Shown here: positions 7,129 through 30,908 of the stretch, piece by piece
Layout of the letters: each line of letters starts with the position of its first letter
Position numbering within the stretch: the first letter of the stretch is position 1
Virus record (IMG/VR): IMGVR_UViG_3300008267_000187
Span: 1-33,352 of that record
Length of the DNA: 33,352 nt
Source: a virus
Strand: one strand, 5' to 3'
The notes under the pieces: generated by a model
What the model was told of the DNA's origin: nothing
The model's input: the letters and a program-made list of their open reading frames with translations, nothing else
Database searches by the model: none
Program-made: the position numbers and the translations under genes

Positions 7129-7746
7129 ATGAATATAAAAAGTAGATTAAGACAACTTATTTTTGAATCAGAAGGTGATTTAGGTTATCATGCTGGTAAT
7201 TTACAATATAAAGCTGAGAAACTTTCAGATAGAGGTTTTATTATCGGTAAAACTGGTCAAATGGGTACTGGTCATTATTTCTATGGAAATATAGAAAATG
7301 CAAAAGAACATGCAGCAAAATTTGGTGGTAAAATAGGTGACAAATCAGTATACGCTGTTGATTTTTCTAAATATTCATTGTTTAGACCATCTAACCCAAA
7401 AGAATACTACGATAATCTAGTTGTACCAATAAACAACGAATTCTTAAAACATTTAACGATAGAAGATTTTGAAGATGAAGAAGTGTTAGAAACACTTAAA
7501 GATGCTGCTGACTTTTATAGAAGTTATGGTGCTAATATTTCTGACGATTATTTTATTCTAATTGCAAAACAATTCGTTCAAGATTTACAGTCAAAATCTT
7601 CTAAAAGTGACGACATGTTCAACACTAGAGTTTTAAAAGCTGCTGGGTTTGAAGGTGTAGATGTTAGAAATACTCCGTTAGATAATTTTGCTGTTGGTTC
7701 TATCATATTCGATATCAAACCAAATACTTTAAAACAAATCCAATAA
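7129..7746 (+). CDS. ADP-ribosyltransferase-like protein with capsid-targeting-like N-terminus
   Basis: The 205-residue protein begins with a short basic amphipathic segment, MNIKSRLRQLIFES, ending in I-x-E followed by Ser (E13/S14). This resembles the (L/I)xE cleavage signal that T4 protease gp21 cuts in internal head proteins. The rest has ART-like landmarks: YHAG near the start (His), a MGTGHYFYGN strand, and late AAGFEGVDVR plus GSIIFDI, as in toxins and phage ARTs that end with a 'GYDGI...VVFD' block. The catalytic Glu of the H-Y-E triad is not obvious, so the activity is uncertain. T4 Alt is also an ART packaged in the head. A late-type motif precedes it although it sits among replication genes. 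The ART assignment is tentative. Confidence 0.45.
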   Translation: MNIKSRLRQLIFESEGDLGYHAGNLQYKAEKLSDRGFIIGKTGQMGTGHYFYGNIENAKEHAAKFGGKIGDKSVYAVDFSKYSLFRPSNPKEYYDNLVVPINNEFLKHLTIEDFEDEEVLETLKDAADFYRSYGANISDDYFILIAKQFVQDLQSKSSKSDDMFNTRVLKAAGFEGVDVRNTPLDNFAVGSIIFDIKPNTLKQIQ

Positions 7747-8875: not shown

Positions 8876-9688
8876 ATGGTAAAAAAAATAGTACATTTAG
8901 CTGATATACATATCAGAACTCTTAGACTACATGATGAGTATAAAGATGTTTTTAAAACTTTCCTTAGAGATGTAAAAGAACTTGTTTCTGATTACACTAG
9001 AGAAGAAGTTAGAATAGTAGTTGCTGGTGATTTGGTTCACCAAAAGATTGTTATTTCAAATGAGCAGTTGATATTAGGAACTTGGTTTCTAAGAAAACTA
9101 GAAGAAATAGCACCAGTTATTCTTATTGCTGGAAACCATGATTTGTTGGAAAACAACACAAATAGAATGGATAGTGTAACACCTATGGTACAATTCTTGG
9201 GCGATAAAGAAATAAACTATTTTAAAGAATCTAAGTGTTATTTAGATGACAATATCGTTTGGTGTCCTTATTCAATCTTTGAAGAAAACGCTAGACCAGA
9301 CATTGAGTCAGCTAGAGTTGAATTTGGTGATGAAAAAACTTACATTGGTTTATTCCATGCACCTTTGATTAATGCTAAAACAGATATTGGTTATGAAATT
9401 GACCATGGTGCTGAATTAGATATCTTTGAAGGTTGTGATATGGTTATGTTGGGTGATATTCACAAAAGACAAGTCTTCAACCATAAAGGTATACTTGTGG
9501 CATACCCATCTAGCCTTATTCAACAGAATTTTGGTGAAAATGTAAGTAAACATGGATTCTTGTTTTGGGATGTTGAAACAAAAACATTTACAGAACACGA
9601 TGTAGAAAATAAATCTCCTTATTACCAATTTAAAATCACTTCATTGGAAGATATTGAGAACGGAACAGAAAAAATTACAAACTTATAA
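8876..9688 (+). CDS. 47: Recombination endonuclease subunit gp47 (SbcD/Mre11-like phosphoesterase)
   Basis: Calcineurin-type phosphoesterase motifs appear in order: LADIH (D10, H12), VVAGDLVH (D52), LIAGNHD (N87, H88), LFHAPL (H161) and LGDIH (H196). This is the Mre11/SbcD/gp47 pattern. It should pair with the Rad50-like gp46 to process DNA ends for recombination-dependent replication and possibly to degrade host DNA. At 270 residues it is shorter than T4 gp47 (339) and ends soon after the phosphoesterase domain, so the capping and Rad50-binding C-terminal part appears short or missing. A GIY-YIG gene starts 4 nt later, separating it from its partner. The catalytic core is intact. Confidence 0.85.
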   Translation: MVKKIVHLADIHIRTLRLHDEYKDVFKTFLRDVKELVSDYTREEVRIVVAGDLVHQKIVISNEQLILGTWFLRKLEEIAPVILIAGNHDLLENNTNRMDSVTPMVQFLGDKEINYFKESKCYLDDNIVWCPYSIFEENARPDIESARVEFGDEKTYIGLFHAPLINAKTDIGYEIDHGAELDIFEGCDMVMLGDIHKRQVFNHKGILVAYPSSLIQQNFGENVSKHGFLFWDVETKTFTEHDVENKSPYYQFKITSLEDIENGTEKITNL

Positions 9689-9692
9689 TAAT

Positions 9693-10145
9693 ATGATGTA
9701 TAGTTATTTAATTGAGTGCACTAGAACTGGTGTCTGCAAAATAGGTAAATCAAATAATCCAATTAAACGATTAGAATCTATTAAAACTGGTAACCCATTT
9801 GTTAAGCTAATTGGTCTTAGTGAATTAAAAGAAAATGATTTACATGTAAAATATGGTGAATTTAGATTTTCTGGTGAATGGTTTGAATTTCCAGAAAATA
9901 TAAAAAATGAAGTTTATTCGTTATTTAAACCGATAGAAAATTACGGTAAAATAAATAACCAAGAAATAGATAAAGAATTTTTAAATAAAATAAAAGAACT
10001 AGATGAAAATTTTAATTTAGTAAAAGTGAATGAATTTACTGATATTGTTTTTAAAAAACTTGGTTCTAAAGGTTATTCAAAATTATTAAAGAATTGTAAA
10101 GAATTTAATGAATTAGTATCAAAATCAATTTATTTATCAATATAG
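9693..10145 (+). CDS. GIY-YIG family protein (T5orf172/MUG113-like)
   Basis: About 150 residues from ATG 9693 (a second ATG is at 9696; a TTG at 9654 would overlap gp47). The first 70 residues carry YSYLIECTRTGVCKIGKS, then NPIKRLESIKTGNP, LHVKYGEFRFSGEWFEF, the layout of the T5orf172-type GIY-YIG nuclease domain (strand, KIGKT/S, R..L..TG.P, LH..F...R..GEWF). The C-terminal half is Lys/Glu/Asn rich and unrecognised. It sits between the two subunits of one complex (gp47 and gp46), a common place for free-standing homing endonucleases. Nuclease or homing activity is inferred. Confidence 0.65.
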   Translation: MMYSYLIECTRTGVCKIGKSNNPIKRLESIKTGNPFVKLIGLSELKENDLHVKYGEFRFSGEWFEFPENIKNEVYSLFKPIENYGKINNQEIDKEFLNKIKELDENFNLVKVNEFTDIVFKKLGSKGYSKLLKNCKEFNELVSKSIYLSI

Positions 10146-13796: not shown

Positions 13797-13820
13797 ATGA
13801 GAGTAAATGAAACGTTTTGA
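13797..13820 (+). other. Possible 7-codon leader ORF (MRVNETF) before the sigma gene
   Basis: ATG at 13797 follows an A-rich leader; seven codons end in TGA (13818-13820), which shares its last base with the sigma ATG (TGATG). This could couple or restrict translation of the sigma factor. It may equally be chance. Confidence 0.3.
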
Positions 13821-16643: not shown

Positions 16644-17195
16644 ATGAAAGAAAACATCAATGAACACGACATGACAAAAAAAATGATGGATATCATCAGA
16701 AATAGTCAAAAATCATTAATAAAAGAAGCTGATGAAATGACAGCACCAGCAACAGAAGAAATGCCACAAAATACGTTGGTACCTGGTGATGATTTACCAG
16801 AAGAAGAACCAAAAATGGCTGAATCACCTAAAGAAGGTCGTGAACCACTTATCAATTTAGATGATTCTTATTTTGAATTAGATAAAGATGACCAAAGATT
16901 TAAAGATTTAGATAAAAAATTAGAAGACATTGCAAATGTTAATGTGACTAGTATTTACGTATCAAAAAACAAAGACTTGGTTATCAACGGTGAAGCTTTA
17001 CAATATCAAAATTCTGGATTATATTTTACAATTGCTTTATCTAACAAAGATGTTGTATCATCTAGTGAAAACGTTGAAGGTGATGAAGCTAACGAAATAA
17101 TTAAAAAACTACAAGGTTTCTTGAAAAACCTTAGAGATGATGTTGCTGGTACAAAAGAATTTTTGTATGACGAAAAATTAGACGGTAAAAAATAA
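16644..17195 (+). CDS. Putative internal head protein with capsid-targeting-like N-terminus (183 aa)
   Basis: The first 28 residues are a basic amphipathic helix ending SLIKE followed by Ala (I26-x-E28/A29), which fits the (L/I)xE-(A/G/S) site cut by T4 gp21-type protease. The next part is acidic and Pro-rich (about 30-65). The C-terminal half is a compact alpha/beta domain (NVTSIYVSKNKDLVINGEAL, then LYFTIALSNKDVV) of unknown family. It is fourth from last in the late operon, 6 nt after the amidase and 4 nt before the spanin-like gene. No enzyme motif was found; the head location is inferred from the N-terminus only. Confidence 0.6.
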   Translation: MKENINEHDMTKKMMDIIRNSQKSLIKEADEMTAPATEEMPQNTLVPGDDLPEEEPKMAESPKEGREPLINLDDSYFELDKDDQRFKDLDKKLEDIANVNVTSIYVSKNKDLVINGEALQYQNSGLYFTIALSNKDVVSSSENVEGDEANEIIKKLQGFLKNLRDDVAGTKEFLYDEKLDGKK

Positions 17196-18810: not shown

Positions 18811-20502
18811 ATGAAAAAAATCAAAATAACCAAAGAACAATACAATAGAATCACTAGCCTTTTAAAAGAAGGGTTTCCAGTACTTAAAAAAAATTTAGTT
18901 GATAAAACTTTTCAAAAAGAATTTGCAAATAAAAATATTAAAAATTTAGGTGAAACAGAATCTGATTTTAATATAAAAAAAGATGTACCTAGCAAAGGTG
19001 TTTCTAGAGCTGGTATGGGTAAATTTATGAAAGAATCTATTGGTGATTTAAAACATGAAACTTTAGAATTGATAAAATATCTTTATAGAAAAACTGAAGA
19101 ATTTTCTCCATTTTGGGCTGAACATGATTTGACTTATGATGATATTTGTGATGCGTTAGAATCAAAAGGTATCATTATTAAAAAAGATGGTAAATTTGAG
19201 TTATCTAAATCATTGGGTTCAGCTGAAGATGCTAAACAAGCTGTAGAATCTGAATTATCACAAATGATTGGTGGTGAAAAAGAAGAAATTGAAGAAGGTG
19301 ATTGGTTTGATTCACACCCAGACCACCCAGCTAATCAACCAGACCCATCATATAGTAAAGCTAGTATACAACCAAATCAATTATCATTTGAAGGACTTTA
19401 CAGTAATAGAGAAATAGCAATATTAAAAGACAAGTCTGGTCAATTATATTCATTCTATTATGACAATGTTTCTGAAGAAGACTTAAACTCAATTGCTTAT
19501 GATTTAGGTTTTGCTGAAGAAGAATATGTAGGTAAAGATGAAGATGGTATGCCAGAATTTGATTACTATTATGATTGGAGAGGAAACCAAGACCAAGAAC
19601 CATTAGTTTTAGCTGCATATGCTGACGAATTAGCTAACGAAGCTGGTGAAGGATTAGAAGATTGGGAAAACGGTGTTGAATTGGTAAAAATTGATGATGC
19701 ACTTAAAAATGAATTATTGAGTGTTTATGATAAAGACACTAAACTTACATCTATATTATCTGGTGTTAACGAAATGGACATGGGTGATATAAAATCAAGA
19801 TTAGCTGAACCATTTAGACAACAACCAAGTGGTTATGAAGAAAAATCACCAGAAGAAAAAGAAAGAATCAGACAAAGTTTAGCTGCAATAAGAGCTAAAT
19901 CTGCTGCACAAGATATTGAAAGATTTAAACAAAGAGATGCTCAAAATGCTATGCACAGTGCAAGAGCTGAAAAAGATATAACTACAAAAACTTTACCAAT
20001 AGAACCTAAAAAACCAATCGGACAATACAACATGTTTGGTGGTATTGATGAAATGAATGCTGGTGATGCTGGTCCGTTTACTCCAGCGTTAGGTGCACAA
20101 ACAATTCAAAAAAGAATGCCGATAGTTACAAATGTTCCAGTTGTTAGAGAAGGAATGACCGCAACACCTAGCACAACTGGTGAATACACAAAACCAGCAT
20201 TCGAAATGAAAAAAAACCATACTGACTTTGCTGAAACAAAACCAAAAGCTTTCAAAAAAACACAATGGGCTGGTGGTGGCTTTGTTGAATTTAACGATTG
20301 TACAAAATTAAACAATAAACCAGCTGGTTCTGGATGTAGTGCTGGGGCTGTTGATAAAGTAGTTACAATTAAAAAAACAAAAGGAAACGTAAATGCACCT
20401 TCTTTATCTGAAAGTAAAATTTATGAAGCGATTGCTAAAAAAACTGGTAAAACAATAGATGAAGTAAAAAGAATTATTCAATCAAAAAATAATAAGTCTT
20501 AA
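18811..20502 (+). CDS. Large putative internal/head-associated protein with cleavable-looking N-terminus (563 aa)
   Basis: Starts MKKIKITKEQYNRITSLLKE followed by Gly: a basic amphipathic helix ending L-x-E/G at E20, a good match to a T4 gp21-type cleavage site. A folded helical part follows (about 60-150), then an acidic Tyr-rich segment (FYYDNVSEEDLNS to DYYYDWRGN, about 215-265), then a long low-complexity, Ala/Glu/Lys-rich part with QYNMFGGIDEMNAGDAG, ending in a small KIYEAIAKKTGKTIDEVKR helix. No catalytic motif is recognised. It shares a late promoter with the 80-residue gene and is followed by another candidate of the same class. Virion location is inferred. Confidence 0.65.
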   Translation: MKKIKITKEQYNRITSLLKEGFPVLKKNLVDKTFQKEFANKNIKNLGETESDFNIKKDVPSKGVSRAGMGKFMKESIGDLKHETLELIKYLYRKTEEFSPFWAEHDLTYDDICDALESKGIIIKKDGKFELSKSLGSAEDAKQAVESELSQMIGGEKEEIEEGDWFDSHPDHPANQPDPSYSKASIQPNQLSFEGLYSNREIAILKDKSGQLYSFYYDNVSEEDLNSIAYDLGFAEEEYVGKDEDGMPEFDYYYDWRGNQDQEPLVLAAYADELANEAGEGLEDWENGVELVKIDDALKNELLSVYDKDTKLTSILSGVNEMDMGDIKSRLAEPFRQQPSGYEEKSPEEKERIRQSLAAIRAKSAAQDIERFKQRDAQNAMHSARAEKDITTKTLPIEPKKPIGQYNMFGGIDEMNAGDAGPFTPALGAQTIQKRMPIVTNVPVVREGMTATPSTTGEYTKPAFEMKKNHTDFAETKPKAFKKTQWAGGGFVEFNDCTKLNNKPAGSGCSAGAVDKVVTIKKTKGNVNAPSLSESKIYEAIAKKTGKTIDEVKRIIQSKNNKS

Positions 20503-20521: not shown

Positions 20522-20536
20522 ATATTTATAATAAAA
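20522..20536 (+). promoter_or_regulatory. Late-type promoter motif (ATATTTATAATAAAA)
   Basis: Exact consensus, 25 nt before the ATG at 20547; no -33 TTG at the expected position. Confidence 0.65.
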
Positions 20537-20546
20537 TCAATTAAAG

Positions 20547-22406
20547 ATGGACAAAAATATAATAAAAAAACACTTAACTCAAAAATTTGTTAACGAAGCA
20601 AAAGGTGAAACAGCAACCCCAGGGATTACTGTAACAAATGCTGCTAAGAAAAAATCTGGAGAGTTTAATAAACAAGGTGTTAAAGATATCGATAAGAATT
20701 TATCTGCTTATGAGAAATCTTTAGGTAAAGGTATGGAAACAACTAAAACACCTAACAAATTCAACTATACTGACAACAAAGAAGTTGAATATCACGACCA
20801 AATGGAAATCATGAATGGTCAAGAGATGATTCAATATGATAGAGAACCAAACAAAGAATTTAAAGATAGAGCTAAACAAGCTTTAGAAGGTAGTTCAATT
20901 ATGGGTAACAAGGGTGGAAAAGATATGGGTAATGCTGAGGAAACTTGGGGTGCTTCATCTGACGATTTTGGTAAAAATTTAGCTAAAAATGCAAAAGCTT
21001 CATTTAAAAAGAGATTAGATTCTGAAACTGGTATTATGAGTTTCGGTGATGATATTGAAGTTGTTCCTAAAGGTAATAAACCAATGGGTAAACATTCAGC
21101 ATTAGCAGAAAATAAAGATAACAATAAACCGCAAATAAAACAATCAATGAAAAGACTTAACTTTAAAAAAGAATTTAACGGTGTTGGAAACGCACTGAAA
21201 ATGATACCAGAATCATACAAAGTAGATAATAAAGTATTCGAAATGACTGATGGTGTTGAAAACTATAAAATCCGTTGGGAAGGTAATTTGACTGAAGGTA
21301 AAGCAGTTGTTCTTATGGCATCTGACAAAACTATGGTTAACGAAGATATGGCTCACATGAAACATCTTATGGGTTACAAATCTCAAGAAACATTAGGTAC
21401 TGTAAAAGGTAAAGCTAGATTAGATGAAAACAAAATGTTTACTGACATTTGGTCTAAAACTAGAGAATTAATGGAAGCTGAAGACATTGAAAGTGCAAAA
21501 GCTAAAACTGGTAACTTGGAAGATATCAAGAAAAAAGCTCCAGAAGCTACTAAACATGTACAAGGTTCTGTATCTAAAGATAAAGGAACAAAAGCACCAG
21601 CTGCTAAAGAAGGTGATTTAGATGATGCTGTATCACATGCACCAGAAGCTAAAAAACATGTTGAAGGTTCTGTATCAACTGAAAAAGGTACAAAAGCACC
21701 AGCACCTAAAAAAGGTGAGTGGGAAGGAGTTAAGAAAAAAGCATCTGAAGCTACTAAACACGTAACAATGAAAGAATCTTTTAACGCTGATGAAGAAGAA
21801 GAAACTGAAGAAGTTGAAGATGTGACAACTGAAAACGTAGAAACATCAAAAGCAAAAGGTGTTAAAAAAGGTAACTGGGATGAAATTAATGTACCTCACG
21901 CTGCTGAAGCTAAAAAACATGTTCATATGGGTAAAGCTGGTATGAGTGAAGGAATCCAATTAGGTGAAAACTTTTTCGCACCAATGTCTGAAAACTTAGA
22001 CGAATATGATGATTTAATGGATTTAGAATTTGAAAGAAGAAAGAAAGCAAAAGAAGATAAATTAAACGCTGCATCTAAGATTGACACTAGAGATGTTGAT
22101 GATTTAATGGATTTAGAATTTGAAAGAAGAAAGAAAGCAAAAGAAGATAAATTAAACGCTGCATCTAATTCTAATATTGATACTAGAGATGTTTATGATT
22201 TAAACATAAAACAAGTAAAAGAATACGGTGACGAACACGAAATATCAACTGACGATGCTGTTAAAAAAATGGGATTAGATGAGTACGGTGATGAGCATGA
22301 AATATCAACGGATGATGCTGTTAACAAAATGGAATTAGACGAATATGGTGATGAGCATGAAATATCAACGGATGATGCTTTAAAAAAAAAAGTAGTGGCG
22401 AAATAG
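20547..22406 (+). CDS. Repeat-rich putative head protein (0-frame product, 619 aa)
   Basis: Begins with a basic helix ending FVNE followed by Ala (V15-x-E17/A18), a near match to the head-protease site. Residues 20-200 are Lys/Asp/Gly-rich; about 210-290 is a more folded part (GVENYKIRWEGNLTEGKAVVL). Then come imperfect repeats: three or four (E)A(T/K)KHV units (about 335-465), two 30-residue DDLMDLEFERRKKAKEDKL units, and three 20-residue (E)YGDEHEISTDDA units. The frame closes at 22404 just after an A10 tract, and the next gene's frame is open from that tract, so a -1 shift would add about 223 residues. No catalytic motif was seen. Confidence 0.68.
   Translation: MDKNIIKKHLTQKFVNEAKGETATPGITVTNAAKKKSGEFNKQGVKDIDKNLSAYEKSLGKGMETTKTPNKFNYTDNKEVEYHDQMEIMNGQEMIQYDREPNKEFKDRAKQALEGSSIMGNKGGKDMGNAEETWGASSDDFGKNLAKNAKASFKKRLDSETGIMSFGDDIEVVPKGNKPMGKHSALAENKDNNKPQIKQSMKRLNFKKEFNGVGNALKMIPESYKVDNKVFEMTDGVENYKIRWEGNLTEGKAVVLMASDKTMVNEDMAHMKHLMGYKSQETLGTVKGKARLDENKMFTDIWSKTRELMEAEDIESAKAKTGNLEDIKKKAPEATKHVQGSVSKDKGTKAPAAKEGDLDDAVSHAPEAKKHVEGSVSTEKGTKAPAPKKGEWEGVKKKASEATKHVTMKESFNADEEEETEEVEDVTTENVETSKAKGVKKGNWDEINVPHAAEAKKHVHMGKAGMSEGIQLGENFFAPMSENLDEYDDLMDLEFERRKKAKEDKLNAASKIDTRDVDDLMDLEFERRKKAKEDKLNAASNSNIDTRDVYDLNIKQVKEYGDEHEISTDDAVKKMGLDEYGDEHEISTDDAVNKMELDEYGDEHEISTDDALKKKVVAK
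22008..22168 (+). repeat. Two direct repeats, 71 bp identical, 90-bp period
   Basis: Bases 22008-22078 and 22098-22168 are identical over 71 bp, encoding DDLMDLEFERRKKAKEDKL and flanks. Identity at silent sites points to a recent in-frame duplication. Confidence 0.9.
22221..22385 (+). repeat. Three tandem 60-bp coding repeats
   Basis: Units start at 22221, 22281 and 22341, each encoding (E)YGDEHEISTDDA and a linker. Copies two and three are closer to each other than to copy one. The third unit is cut short and runs into the A10 tract, where its GCTGTT..A-run has become GCTTT plus A10. Confidence 0.9.
22379..22391 (+). promoter_or_regulatory. Probable -1 ribosomal frameshift or slippage site (T TTA AAA in an A10 tract)
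   Basis: In the 0 frame the codons are GCT TTA AAA AAA AAA GTA, so T-TTA-AAA (22379-22385) is a canonical X-XXY-YYZ heptamer, and A10 (22382-22391) would also permit polymerase slippage. The -1 frame is open from here through to 23056. Only short, weak stem-loops are seen downstream. An error in homopolymer length is the plain alternative. Confidence 0.6.
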
Positions 22407-23056
22407 AAACAGCTATTCAAAACGCTGTACCAAAGATAATTAACAACCCATTAATACAAAACATATCAGATAAAATAATGAATGACCCAAAAGCTATTGA
22501 TGCACTTAAACAGTTCATGAATATGGGTAATATTCAAGAAGATGAAGATATGGTTGTTAAAATACCAGACATGGCATTTTTAAAAAATGCAATTCATTAT
22601 GGTGTTGAACAATCTAAAAGCTTAACTGAGGGTGACCAAGGTGGTAATATTGGTGCTTTCTTGGGTATGTTTGCTGGTGGTACGTATTTAGCGGATAAAT
22701 TTTTCCCAAACCCTATGATTATGCAAAAAGTGGCAACAAATGTAGGTCTTGTTGATATGCTTCAACATGCACATGACCCAATGGCTGTTGCTGGTTTAGG
22801 TGGGTTAGCAGCTGCTGTATTAGGTTGTATTGCTTATAATGTATTTAAAAAACTTAAAAGTAAGAAAGAACCAAAAGTAAACTACGATGGACCAAAAGAA
22901 CCATCAAATACTGGTGACGCTGAAAAAGATAGTATTATTGATAAAATATTAGCTTTACCAAATATGAATAGAAAAAATGATAATTGGCAATATTTAAGTC
23001 AGTTTGATACAAAACTATTAAAGAATTTTTATATTGAAAAAGGTGGTAAACTATAA
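22382..23056 (+). CDS. -1 frame extension with two membrane-like helices; C-terminal part of a fusion, or 192-aa protein from ATG 22478
   Basis: The -1 frame from the A10 tract reads SSGEIETAIQNAVPKIINN and on into the ATG at 22478 (MNDPKAIDAL) without a stop, and this upstream stretch looks like real protein. The fusion would be about 836 residues. The part after 22478 has a TEG site (L-x-E/G at E51), a Gly/Ala/Phe-rich hydrophobic segment (about 58-76), a second long one (about 101-123, MAVAGLGGLAAAVLGCIAYNVF) followed by KKLKSKK, then a polar tail. Internal initiation at 22478 remains possible. The helices suggest membrane contact, for instance during DNA entry. A terminator follows. Confidence 0.6.
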   Translation, partial: KKKSSGEIETAIQNAVPKIINNPLIQNISDKIMNDPKAIDALKQFMNMGNIQEDEDMVVKIPDMAFLKNAIHYGVEQSKSLTEGDQGGNIGAFLGMFAGGTYLADKFFPNPMIMQKVATNVGLVDMLQHAHDPMAVAGLGGLAAAVLGCIAYNVFKKLKSKKEPKVNYDGPKEPSNTGDAEKDSIIDKILALPNMNRKNDNWQYLSQFDTKLLKNFYIEKGGKL

Positions 23057-23103: not shown

Positions 23104-23111
23104 ATTTATGG

Positions 23112-23128
23112 ATATTTATAAATAAAAA
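23112..23128 (+). promoter_or_regulatory. Late-type promoter motif (ATATTTATAAATAAAAA)
   Basis: Follows the terminator, 20 nt before the lysozyme ATG at 23132. No -33 TTG at the expected position. Confidence 0.62.
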
Positions 23129-23131
23129 GTT

Positions 23132-23593
23132 ATGGAAAAAATTACAAAAACTGGTACCCATGGTATCGAACTAATCAAAAAATTTGAAGGGTTCAGTTCA
23201 AAACCCTATAAGTGTCCAGCTGGGATACCAACGATAGCATACGGAGCAACGTTTTACCCAAACGGTAAAAAAGTAACAATGACTGACAAACCAGTAACAG
23301 AAGCTGAAGGTGTTGAGTTATTAAAGTCTATGTTGTCAAAATTTGAACAATATGTTGACTCATATTGTATCGATAGCATAACACAAAATCAATTCGATGC
23401 GTTGGTATCATTTTGTTATAATTTGGGTCCAGCAAATTTAAAATCATCAACATTGTTGAAGAAAGTTAATGCTAATCCAAACGATGAAACAATCAGAGCA
23501 GAGTTCATGAAATGGACAAAAGCTGGTGGTAGAACACTTAAAGGTTTGGTGACAAGAAGAACCGCTGAAGCTGATTTATATTTTAAAAAATAA
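23132..23593 (+). CDS. Endolysin, glycoside hydrolase family 24 lysozyme
   Basis: 153 residues, typical of GH24 endolysins. The catalytic set is visible: KKFEGF (E19), then C28 and T34, exactly E-x8-C-x5-T, the form found in phage 21 and P1-like lysozymes. Further family signs are YGAT, a QFDALVSFCYNLGPANLKSSTLL segment and a C-terminal GLVTRRTAEADLY. It should hydrolyse the glycan strands of peptidoglycan. No signal-anchor or signal peptide is seen, so it should depend on a holin. It forms a single-gene unit with its own late-type motif and terminator. Confidence 0.92.
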   Translation: MEKITKTGTHGIELIKKFEGFSSKPYKCPAGIPTIAYGATFYPNGKKVTMTDKPVTEAEGVELLKSMLSKFEQYVDSYCIDSITQNQFDALVSFCYNLGPANLKSSTLLKKVNANPNDETIRAEFMKWTKAGGRTLKGLVTRRTAEADLYFKK

Positions 23594-23675: not shown

Positions 23676-25439
23676 ATGGATAAATTGAATAAAATTTATA
23701 TTGGTATCGGTTCTGCAATAATGGTGTTTTATATTTTAACGCATACTTTTGTTATGTTAGATTATATTCCATTATGTAAAGAAATTGCAATTTTTAATTA
23801 CGTATCAATAATTTTATTTAGTATTCCAGCTGCATTATTTATTAAAGGTTTTATTAAAAAAAGCAAAGAGTCAACCAAGTTAAATTTTTACGCTAAAAAA
23901 TTAAACGAAACTCTAATTCATCAATCTCACAATCAATTATTTTACGAAGGAAATATTGTAGATGGTTCTAAACATTTAACAAAAGAAGTAACTCTATCAA
24001 CTAATACTGATAGATGTTCAATATGGTTATATAATGATGATAAAACAGAAATAATATGTAAACAGTTATATGTAAAGCATGAAGACAAATGGTATGATAA
24101 TATTACGTTATATAAGAAGGATTATGAGCCTTATTTTAATGCGTTGATAGTTGACCCTATAATTGTTGCAAATGATGCAAGAACACACCAATCAACGAAA
24201 TGTTTTACTGAATCATATTTAATTCCTTTGGGTGTAAATTCTATGTTAGATGTTCCAATTTATTACAAGGGTAAAGTTATTGGTGTTATTTGTATTGAAT
24301 CATTTGAATCTAGAGAATGGCACAAAGTAGAAATTAATTTTGCTGAGATGTTATCATCTTTATTTGCATTTATGTATTCAGTTAAAGAAAACAAAATGGT
24401 TGAGAAAAATATGGTTGATTTTGAAGAATTCGTGAATGAAACAGCATTGATTTCAAAAACCGACAAGCATGGTAAAATAACTTATGCAAACAAAAAGTTT
24501 ATTGAAGTTTGTGGGTATAGCAAGAGAGAAGTTTTGGGTAAAGACCATAACATAGTAAACTCTGGAATACAATCAAAAGATTATTGGACTAAGATGTATA
24601 AGACTACTGTTAAAAACAGAAAAATTTGGCACGATTTAGTTGTTAATAAAAATAAAAAAGGTGAACTATATTACGTTGATACATACATCAAAGCAGAATT
24701 TAATCATGATACTGATGAATTAATTGGTTTCACATCAATAAGACAAGATGTTACAGAATTATATGAATCATTGAATGAATTAAACAAAAAGAATACCTAT
24801 TTAGAACACGCTGCAAAGATTCTAAGACACGATATGCATTCTGGTATAAATACATATATCCCAAGAGGTATTAGTTCATTAGAGAGAAGATTATCACCAG
24901 AAATCATTGAAGAATCAAAACTAGAAGCACCTTTAAGAATGTTGAAAGAAGGTTTAAAACATACACAAAAAGTTTATAAGGGTGTTTATGAATTTACAAA
25001 CTTAGTTAAACAAGACGCTGTTTTATCTAAAGATTATCATAATCTTAAAGAAATTTTATCTAATTTCTTAAAATCAACAGCATATTTTAGTCAAATTAAA
25101 ATTGAAGATTTACCTAATCATGAGGTAAATGAATCTTTATTTTGTACTGCTATTGATAACCTTATTAGAAATGGTTTAAAATATAATGATTCAAATAATA
25201 AAATGATTAGTATCTATATGGAAGACGAAGACACATTGATTGTACAAGACAATGGTAGAGGTCTAACACAAGAACAATTCGAAGAATACTCAAAACCTTA
25301 CACTAGAAATAAAAACCAAAAAGAACCAGGAACTGGCTTAGGTTTAAATATTTGTATTGCGATATTAAAGGAACATGGTTTTGGTATTAGATGTGAAAAA
25401 AATGAAATAGGTACTAAAATGAAAATTAAAATTAAATAG
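23676..25439 (+). CDS. Membrane sensor histidine kinase (GAF-PAS-HisKA-HATPase)
   Basis: 587 residues. Two hydrophobic helices (about 8-28 and 39-60) with a very short loop anchor it in the inner membrane. A GAF-like domain follows (about 75-235; SIWLYNDDKTEIICKQLY, LDVPIYYKGKVIGVICIES), then PAS/PAC (about 250-360; ISKTDKHGKITYANKKF, GFTSIRQDVTE). The dimerisation helix has LRHDMHS with H385 as likely phospho-acceptor. The ATPase has N-box DNLIRNGLKY (N495), G1 DNGRG and G2 GTGLGLNI. All catalytic motifs look intact. It should phosphorylate the receiver protein encoded 2 nt downstream. Complete sensor kinases are rare in phages. With almost no periplasmic part, the input is probably internal or within the membrane. 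Confidence 0.9.
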   Translation: MDKLNKIYIGIGSAIMVFYILTHTFVMLDYIPLCKEIAIFNYVSIILFSIPAALFIKGFIKKSKESTKLNFYAKKLNETLIHQSHNQLFYEGNIVDGSKHLTKEVTLSTNTDRCSIWLYNDDKTEIICKQLYVKHEDKWYDNITLYKKDYEPYFNALIVDPIIVANDARTHQSTKCFTESYLIPLGVNSMLDVPIYYKGKVIGVICIESFESREWHKVEINFAEMLSSLFAFMYSVKENKMVEKNMVDFEEFVNETALISKTDKHGKITYANKKFIEVCGYSKREVLGKDHNIVNSGIQSKDYWTKMYKTTVKNRKIWHDLVVNKNKKGELYYVDTYIKAEFNHDTDELIGFTSIRQDVTELYESLNELNKKNTYLEHAAKILRHDMHSGINTYIPRGISSLERRLSPEIIEESKLEAPLRMLKEGLKHTQKVYKGVYEFTNLVKQDAVLSKDYHNLKEILSNFLKSTAYFSQIKIEDLPNHEVNESLFCTAIDNLIRNGLKYNDSNNKMISIYMEDEDTLIVQDNGRGLTQEQFEEYSKPYTRNKNQKEPGTGLGLNICIAILKEHGFGIRCEKNEIGTKMKIKIK

Positions 25440-25441
25440 TT

Positions 25442-25879
25442 ATGATAGATTCAATCTTATTGGTGGATGACGAAGACTTATTCCACTTAGTTTTTGAAGA
25501 TGCTTGCAGTCTTCTGGATATAACACTTTCGCTACAAAGCGTTTCTTCAGCAGATGAAGCTGAAAAAATGTTCAAGGAGTGGTACGAAAATAATAAAACA
25601 GATGAAAGACCAGAGTGTGTTTTTGTTGATTTAAACATTATAGGTTCAAGTTTTGATGGTATTGAATTGATTAGAAGAATCAATTTTGAATATGGTAACC
25701 ACGTTATAATTGGAATAATATCATCTAGTGATGAACCAGAAGAACAAGCAAAAGCTGTAAAAGCTGGTGCTCAATTTTGGATAGTTAAAACAGATGATAT
25801 AGAACCTAGATTAGAGGACTTCAGAAAAGATTTTGAAAATTACAAACACGGTAAAACGTCATTTAAAGTATATAGATAA
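25442..25879 (+). CDS. Single-domain response regulator (CheY-like receiver)
   Basis: 145 residues, one receiver domain with no output domain. Acidic pocket DD (D9, D10), phospho-acceptor D63 in CVFVDLNI, a Ser/Thr switch position in IISSSDE (S94-S96) and K116 in WIVKTDD are all present. The gap to the kinase stop is 2 nt and its own stop shares one base with the next ATG, so the pair is one unit. Receiver-only proteins act by protein contacts, as with CheY or Spo0F. The partner could be the membrane coiled-coil protein encoded next, or a host protein; neither is shown. Confidence 0.9.
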   Translation: MIDSILLVDDEDLFHLVFEDACSLLDITLSLQSVSSADEAEKMFKEWYENNKTDERPECVFVDLNIIGSSFDGIELIRRINFEYGNHVIIGIISSSDEPEEQAKAVKAGAQFWIVKTDDIEPRLEDFRKDFENYKHGKTSFKVYR

Positions 25880-30353: not shown

Positions 30354-30908
30354 ATGAAAACACTAATTAAAAATTTATTAAAAGAAGCGGTAAATGATTT
30401 TACTATAACATGTGAAAACTGTGGTTGGGATTGGAAAGCTTCAGAATCAGATAAATCTGATTTATATGTTTGTCATAAATGTGGTCATGATAACGAACCA
30501 CCATATGATGATGAAAAACTTAATGAATCAGAAGATGAACAACAAGTTGCTGGTGTTCTTATTAAATGTCTTAAAACAAATCGTGTGTTTTTATTATATA
30601 GAAATGACCCAAGCCCAAAATGGGCTCTTATGTCTGGTGGTATGGATGAAGGTGAAAAACCAGTTGACACATTAAGAAGAGAAATTGGTGAAGAGTTACA
30701 AATAGATGCATCAGACATTCAATTTGAATATGATAGAACCGAGTATATACCAAGTAAAAATAGAAAATTTTATTACTATAAAGGCTTTACAATGTCAGAA
30801 TTTAAACCTACATTAGACCATGAAAACCTTAAATATGGGTGGTTTTCAAAGGATAAAATACCAACACCTTTATATAAAGGTTTGTCTGAAAAAATTACTA
30901 GAATATGA
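30354..30908 (+). CDS. NUDIX hydrolase with zinc ribbon and capsid-targeting-like N-terminus
   Basis: 184 residues in three parts. First, MKTLIKNLLKE then Ala: L-x-E/A at E11, a strong match to a T4-type head-protease site and close to the T4 internal-protein signal. Second, a four-Cys zinc ribbon, CENCGWDWKAS (C20, C23) and CHKCGHDNEP (C40, C43). Third, a NUDIX fold with the box GGMDEGEKPVDTLRREIGEEL (G95, E101, R109, E110, E113, E114); the late Gly of the consensus is Gln (116). It may act on nucleotides, capped RNA or ADP-ribose-type compounds. It follows a late-type motif. A packaged enzyme injected with DNA is the working idea. Confidence 0.82.
   Translation: MKTLIKNLLKEAVNDFTITCENCGWDWKASESDKSDLYVCHKCGHDNEPPYDDEKLNESEDEQQVAGVLIKCLKTNRVFLLYRNDPSPKWALMSGGMDEGEKPVDTLRREIGEELQIDASDIQFEYDRTEYIPSKNRKFYYYKGFTMSEFKPTLDHENLKYGWFSKDKIPTPLYKGLSEKITRI

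Follow-up and report, generated by a model that had tools for sequence, protein, structure and literature searches.

The sequence analysed here (the window) is the 33,352-base IMG/VR phage fragment IMGVR_UViG_3300008267_000187, from an uncultured T4-like phage. The 0 frame of a gene starting at position 20547 ends with GCT TTA AAA AAA AAA GTA GTG GCG AAA TAG, and the -1 frame, open between 22376 and 23053, crosses the run of ten A residues (A10) and stops at 23054. The features of the locus are as follows:

18811..20502, plus strand: preceding gene, 563 aa; its homologue in the related contig L022 has an A10/-1 break
20547..22406, plus strand: 0-frame open reading frame (ORF) for the short form, 619 aa, with the N-terminal family domain (approximately residues 1-309), lysine/alanine repeats, the 60-bp repeats and DDALKKKVVAK before TAG
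20547..20597, plus strand: capsid-targeting-like N-terminus, MDKNIIKKHLTQKFVNE/A, motif as in PMC9026906
22221..22388, plus strand: 60-bp tandem repeat, 2.8 copies, unit EYGDEHEISTDDAV, the third copy running into A10
22379..22391, plus strand: overlapping in-phase -1 heptamers, T_TTA_AAA at 22379 and A_AAA_AAA at 22382 and 22385
22382..22391, plus strand: A10 tract of exactly ten A residues, the proposed slippage site
22391..23056, plus strand: -1 frame tail, SSGEIETAIQ...EKGGKL, 221 aa plus stop, with two hydrophobic segments and in-frame homologues in L023 and L124
22404..22406, plus strand: 0-frame stop codon TAG, four codons past the A10 tract
22478..23056, plus strand: mechanically called ORF from ATG 22478, 192 aa, without approximately 29 homologous residues upstream
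23132..23593, plus strand: endolysin gene (PHROG 7, by PHROGs match), next after the tail

An earlier note on this DNA had proposed that a probable -1 frameshift or slippage at 22379-22391 joins two frames of a head protein with a 619-aa short form and a long form of about 836 aa. The sequence and phase given there are correct, with the 0 frame stopping at TAG and the -1 frame open through A10; counted from AGT at 22391, the first codon lying wholly in the -1 frame, the tail comprises 221 codons, and the computed sizes of the predicted products, 619 and 836 aa, agree with those of the note. The segment of the -1 frame 5′ of ATG 22478 is coding-like in codon usage (codon score +9.5, vs. -47 and -30 for the other frames and -23 ± 13 for shuffled sequences) and is homologous to an in-frame protein in L023. 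No other frame breaks were found in the window, 80% of which is covered by relatives.

The A10 tract exceeds every other homopolymer in the window, six A8 runs coming next in length, and sits at the edge of the 60-bp tandem repeat. The third repeat copy is one base shorter at A10 than the first and second copies (GCTTTAAA vs. GCTGTTAA), and because of this shortfall the break in the window lineage could possibly have come from a one-base change; a one-base loss may have been its origin, and the break may be recent. An exact-DNA search found no second strain at this site. The T-TTA-AAA heptamer that the note described as textbook is present in the right phase, but it is not a distinctive signal, as T_TTA_AAA occurs in phase 16 times across the genes of the window (A_AAA_AAA, 15 times). 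Downstream of A10, no stimulatory structure was seen in the window (fold z -0.6 and +0.9), and no Shine-Dalgarno-like element was seen by eye just upstream of the tract.

At the thresholds used, a search of INPHARED detected no homologue of the 20547 protein, its tail or the neighbouring genes, the one match to the tail being insignificant (E = 0.2). Nearest-neighbour searches of INPHARED and IMG/VR, for which the 20547 protein, its tail and flanking genes served as queries, gave nothing useful, and no relatives were found among the genome contigs searched. The family was opened up by the sigma factor gene at 13817, which led to 80 related contigs, and the N-terminal domain, used as a profile query, brought in further members. 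The closest relatives encode the 20547 homologue as one uninterrupted ORF with a very variable C-terminus, and in the relatives examined a lysis gene is next after it. The first reading, drawn from these closest relatives, was an ordinary one-base indel in a continuous gene; it was overturned by a recurrent -1 pattern past the stops of homologues. A clean two-gene arrangement at the 20547 junction, which the note had named among the findings that would refute its reading, was seen in no relative.

The window tail is 44% identical to an in-frame domain of L023 (6e-38), the homology starting directly after the A run, and also matches L124 (tblastn, 6e-4; hhalign, 1.2e-8), where the domain is fused to the same N-terminal domain. 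L023, its closest homologue, is in frame without any A run. These fusions bear out the contention that the two frames encode one product, which is further backed by the same -1 break after A9 or A10 in nine homologues, including two groups with a conserved junction. Pfam and PHROGs gave no functional assignment for the 20547 protein, for its tail or for the tails that relatives have in the -1 frame, a PDB search returned a single uninformative match (E = 0.014), and the AlphaFold models of the tail and the N-terminal region (pLDDT 48 for each) were unusable. With its two hydrophobic segments, the window tail might be active at a membrane.

A survey was performed on 100 family genes from IMG/VR phage contigs and 1,707 other genes, in which any other frame open past the stop of each homologue was sought and the DNA at that place was then inspected. 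All contigs are metagenomic, with sequencing platforms unstated, and the family counts treat related sequences as independent. A break was identified in 10 of the approximately 100 homologous genes, window included, and about 90% are unbroken. At the ten breaks, the 0 frame stops 0-4 codons after A10 (eight genes) or A9 (two genes), and the -1 frame continues without a stop for 82-220 codons. All ten breaks are -1 (two-sided binomial p = 0.002), and they fall at 10 of the 22 family runs of nine or more A residues (A9+), compared with none of 175 A7-8 runs; in the other genes, a break occurs at 1 of 35 A9+ runs. No +1 break was found at A9+ runs in either the family or the other genes. Apparent breaks at short runs in the other genes occur in both directions, +1 being commoner, as overlaps between neighbouring genes would predict. 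In L037/L147, a single record, the N-terminal domain is split over several frames; this contig is probably error-rich, and its break is not counted among the ten.

The lengths of the A runs are also biased. The family contains 29 A8, 8 A9, 15 A10 and 1 A11 runs, the corresponding numbers in the other genes being 348, 42, 11 and 2, so that A10+ is enriched in the family relative to both A8 (p = 9e-10) and A9 (p = 7e-4). Family A10 runs occur in all three codon phases. In synonymous shuffles of a first set of 81 genes, 32 A9 and 18 A10+ runs were expected and 3 and 14 were observed; A9 is therefore depleted and A10 is not. Another eight genes of the family keep the module in the 0 frame behind a long run (A10 in seven, A11 in one); insertion of a further A there would bring up a stop after a few codons. 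Six of the ten tails, among them those of L093 (19 residues), L119, L123/L152 and the window, have homologues that are read in frame, mostly as fusions in the same protein family. ATG, GTG and TTG are all missing from the first 47 codons of five of the ten tails, and from the whole of one, so several of the tails cannot be made by separate initiation.

Pairs of related genes allow the same junction to be compared. The N-terminal domains of L109 and L137 are 68% identical, both genes break, at A10 and A9, and their tails are homologous (59% identity, dS 1.56, dN 0.29); this tail domain is a mobile module, which further members of the family and the family of the preceding gene carry in frame. 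In L093 and L094 (83%), too, each gene is broken and the tails are homologous (dS 0.65, dN 0.35), and both edges of the run in L094 are shifted by one base relative to L093, which moves the codon phase and leaves the run at A10 with the same frame relation; L128 contains part of this tail, also in -1, as a weaker third member of the group. At a homologous site, L222:5848 carries A11 and is in frame and L119:6046 carries A10 and has the -1 break, their tails being 73% identical (dS 1.34, dN 0.19); a one-base change can therefore flip the frame, as mutation or phase variation also would. These values are pairwise and give no date for a break of recent origin in one or other lineage. L117:7111 and L118:6996 are 93% identical up to the run, and L118 stops before it and has no tail, indicating that the short form can stand alone.

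A comparable break occurs in the preceding gene family. In L022:15625, from the same record as L105, the homologue of 18811-20502 has a -1 break at A10, beyond which lies a C-terminus encoded in the 0 frame by approximately 50 relatives. This may be a second family with the same device, or one indel.

The best reading of the 20547 locus, which the comparisons of frames and homologues render fairly probable, is that slippage on the A tract yields a short form and a minor long form of the protein. Standard decoding of the A10 message would give the 619-aa form, ending just past the lysines; in a fraction of messages, RNA polymerase would slip on A10 and add one A, or the ribosome would move back one base, and the shifted reading would enter the -1 frame and produce the 836-aa form, whose C-terminal module has two hydrophobic segments. 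The design proposed for the family would place an A9-A11 run just 5′ of exchangeable C-terminal modules, which some phages encode in the 0 frame and others in the -1 frame, and slippage would result in a mixture of short and long forms in both cases. The protein would be capsid-internal, and its minority long form would take an accessory module along into the head. The analysis established the frames, the homology, the recurrence and direction of the breaks, the tract-length bias and dN < dS in the tails; slippage, its transcriptional nature and the capsid role are what we infer. The survey suggests that A10 slippage may be a recurring, selected route to a short and a tailed long protein in the family.

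Slippage by RNA polymerase appears more likely than slippage on the T-TTA-AAA heptamer. A run of approximately nine or more A or T residues, as expected for transcriptional slippage, is present at the junction of all ten breaks (A9 or A10), the frame reached by adding one A is a conserved coding continuation (L023 and L124; ten homologues), and tract length is kept regardless of codon phase in L093 and L094, the exception being L119 (A10) and L222 (A11). Because the breaks need A9+, length rather than phase is kept and the window has no downstream structure, polymerase slippage, which the earlier note had offered as its alternative, is favoured, and the heptamer is probably not the signal, since unbroken in-phase heptamers are common. 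Ribosomal -1 frameshifting on T_TTA_AAA or A_AAA_AAA as the source of the long form is accordingly considered unlikely. An in-phase X_XXY_YYZ heptamer does exist at 22379-22391, the A9/A10 runs at the breaks contain in-phase A_AAA_AAR sites, and stable downstream folds are found in a few relatives (L123, z -3.7; L093, z -3.1; L022, z -2.7), so that the ribosome may contribute in part. Such heptamers are, however, common in the window and are not conserved as a minimal element, approximately 100 in-phase A_AAA_AAR sites in the A7-8 runs of the family show no break, neither a stimulatory structure nor a Shine-Dalgarno-like element accompanies the window site, and between L093 and L094 it is the length of the tract, not its codon phase, that is preserved. 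In Escherichia coli, moreover, heptamers without stimulators raise frameshifting at most approximately tenfold over a background of approximately 0.05% (PMC4066793), which counts against this explanation.

A one-base deletion in an ordinary gene with nothing programmed, arising either in the phage or during assembly, would agree with the uninterrupted ORF of the closest relatives, with the short third repeat copy, with the one-base difference between L222 and L119, and with the position of the break at the longest homopolymer of the window, where mutation and base-calling errors concentrate; it is nevertheless quite improbable given ten breaks in a single direction and all at A9 or A10, two homologous pairs in which both members are broken (one with dS 1.56), a window tail open for 221 codons with coding-like codon use, and the over-representation of A10, which in-frame members keep too. 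Homopolymer A runs are hypermutable in general, and a contingency tract in which replication slippage between A10 and A11 heritably toggles the tail would account for L119 and L222, one A apart at the same site with the frame toggled; such phase variation should populate all frames, yet neither broken A11 or A12 forms nor +1 breaks were seen, and we hold it to be a poor prospect. Highly improbable is the possibility of two separate genes, with the 192-aa ORF translated alone, for example as a membrane protein beside the endolysin. The ATG at 22478, the two hydrophobic segments and the endolysin gene 75 bp downstream would be in keeping with it; against it, the homology with L023 starts approximately 29 codons 5′ of this ATG, L023 and L124 both carry the domain as an in-frame fusion, and a usable start codon is lacking from several other broken tails in the family.

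The N-terminus bears on where the protein might act. In T4, capsid-targeting peptides are cut by gp21 after L/I-x-E (PMC9026906). Of the 70 N-termini of the family, 64 carry an [LIV]xE motif within residues 11-22, vs. 21% of other genes and 21% of internal windows; in the window it reads VNE, that is, with V where the T4-type motif has L or I. A second [LIV]xE follows the A run in the long frame at 16 of 18 sites (approximately 20% after lysine pairs elsewhere), the two sites without it being the window and L132. A gp21-type protease (PF03420) was detected in 2 of 13 related records and a Gp23 match in 4 of 13, records that may be fragments. The capsid-targeting-like N-terminus and the T4-like relatives point indirectly to the head protein assumed by the earlier note, and the 20547 product, a probable capsid-internal protein, may be a carrier with exchangeable C-terminal modules. 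Doubtful as yet, and put forward tentatively, is the wider idea that the A9-A11 runs are a selected, family-wide recoding device of uncultured T4-like phages, docking different C-terminal cargo modules on a capsid-targeted carrier at a fixed low ratio by polymerase slippage, the modules in most members being freed by prohead-protease cleavage after the run, in the logic of retroviral Gag-Pol but with transcriptional slippage as its basis.

Further features were noted elsewhere in the window. Capsid-targeting-like N-termini with L/I-x-E are also encoded at window positions 7129-7746 (LIFES), 16644-17195 (LIKEA), 18811-20502 (LLKEG) and 30354-30908 (LLKEA); one of these four genes is NUDIX-like, and all are candidates for virion-internal enzymes. 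T4-late-promoter-like TATTTATAA(ATA)-like sequences lie just upstream of 20547 (20524-20536) and of 23132 (23111-23124), and none was seen before 22478. Positions 23676-25439 encode a sensor-kinase-like protein (ATPase motifs by eye), followed at 25442-25879 by a response regulator (Pfam PF00072); this phage-encoded two-component-like pair is kept in some relatives (L052), and the kinase-like gene is also present in L003 and L006. At 9654-10145, after a gp47-like gene, there is an ORF resembling GIY-YIG/T5orf172-type endonucleases by eye.

Homopolymer frame breaks in metagenomic phages are usually written off as sequencing errors or split gene calls. The breaks of the 20547 family occur in one protein family and in one direction, with a near-constant tract length and dN < dS in the compared C-terminal modules. 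If confirmed, this would be, as far as we have found, the first family-wide polymerase slippage in a phage virion-type protein. The device would let the phage set the dose of accessory modules in the head, and gene callers would have grounds to join such frames.

Short and long forms of structural proteins arise in other phages by -1 ribosomal shifts, as for lambda G/GT and T7 10A/10B, which use a slippery site and often stimulators. The 20547 family resembles these in its proposed short and long forms of a structural gene related by a -1 shift and differs in that its recurrent element is an A9-A10 run. We know of no use of frameshifting in the internal proteins of T4. The family shares with them a short N-terminal peptide ending in hydrophobic-x-E and, as proposed, accessory proteins carried into the head (PMC9026906); it differs in that no sequence homology with them is evident and that its virion location is putative. 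In the Campylobacter T4-like phage CPt10, a poly-A frame break in a methyltransferase gene was confirmed, and its authors suggested transcriptional slippage (PMC2853527); this is a single gene for an unrelated protein and does not recur in a family. Thermus thermophilus dnaX likewise yields two products of one gene by polymerase slippage at an A9 homopolymer, nine A residues being the usual length at which selection against slippage shows in many bacteria (PMC1088944). Slippage in dnaX produces the short form, and the 0 frame encodes the long one; the arrangement of the window is the reverse, and that of the in-frame A10 members of the family matches dnaX. Closest in layout is Citrobacter rodentium tssM1, where slippage at A11 gives two TssM forms, the long one amounting to approximately 20% (PMC4256274). 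As in the phage family, the A run lies shortly before the stop, and with one added A the reading continues into a C-terminal domain that relatives encode in frame; as proposed for the phage family, short and long forms coexist with no stimulatory structure needed (PMC4256274). In contrast to the phage family, which is known here from sequence, tssM1 is a bacterial secretion gene with an A11 run, proven by mass spectrometry; the only other tssM found with such a run is Yersinia pseudotuberculosis tssM3, whereas the phage family has many different C-terminal modules.
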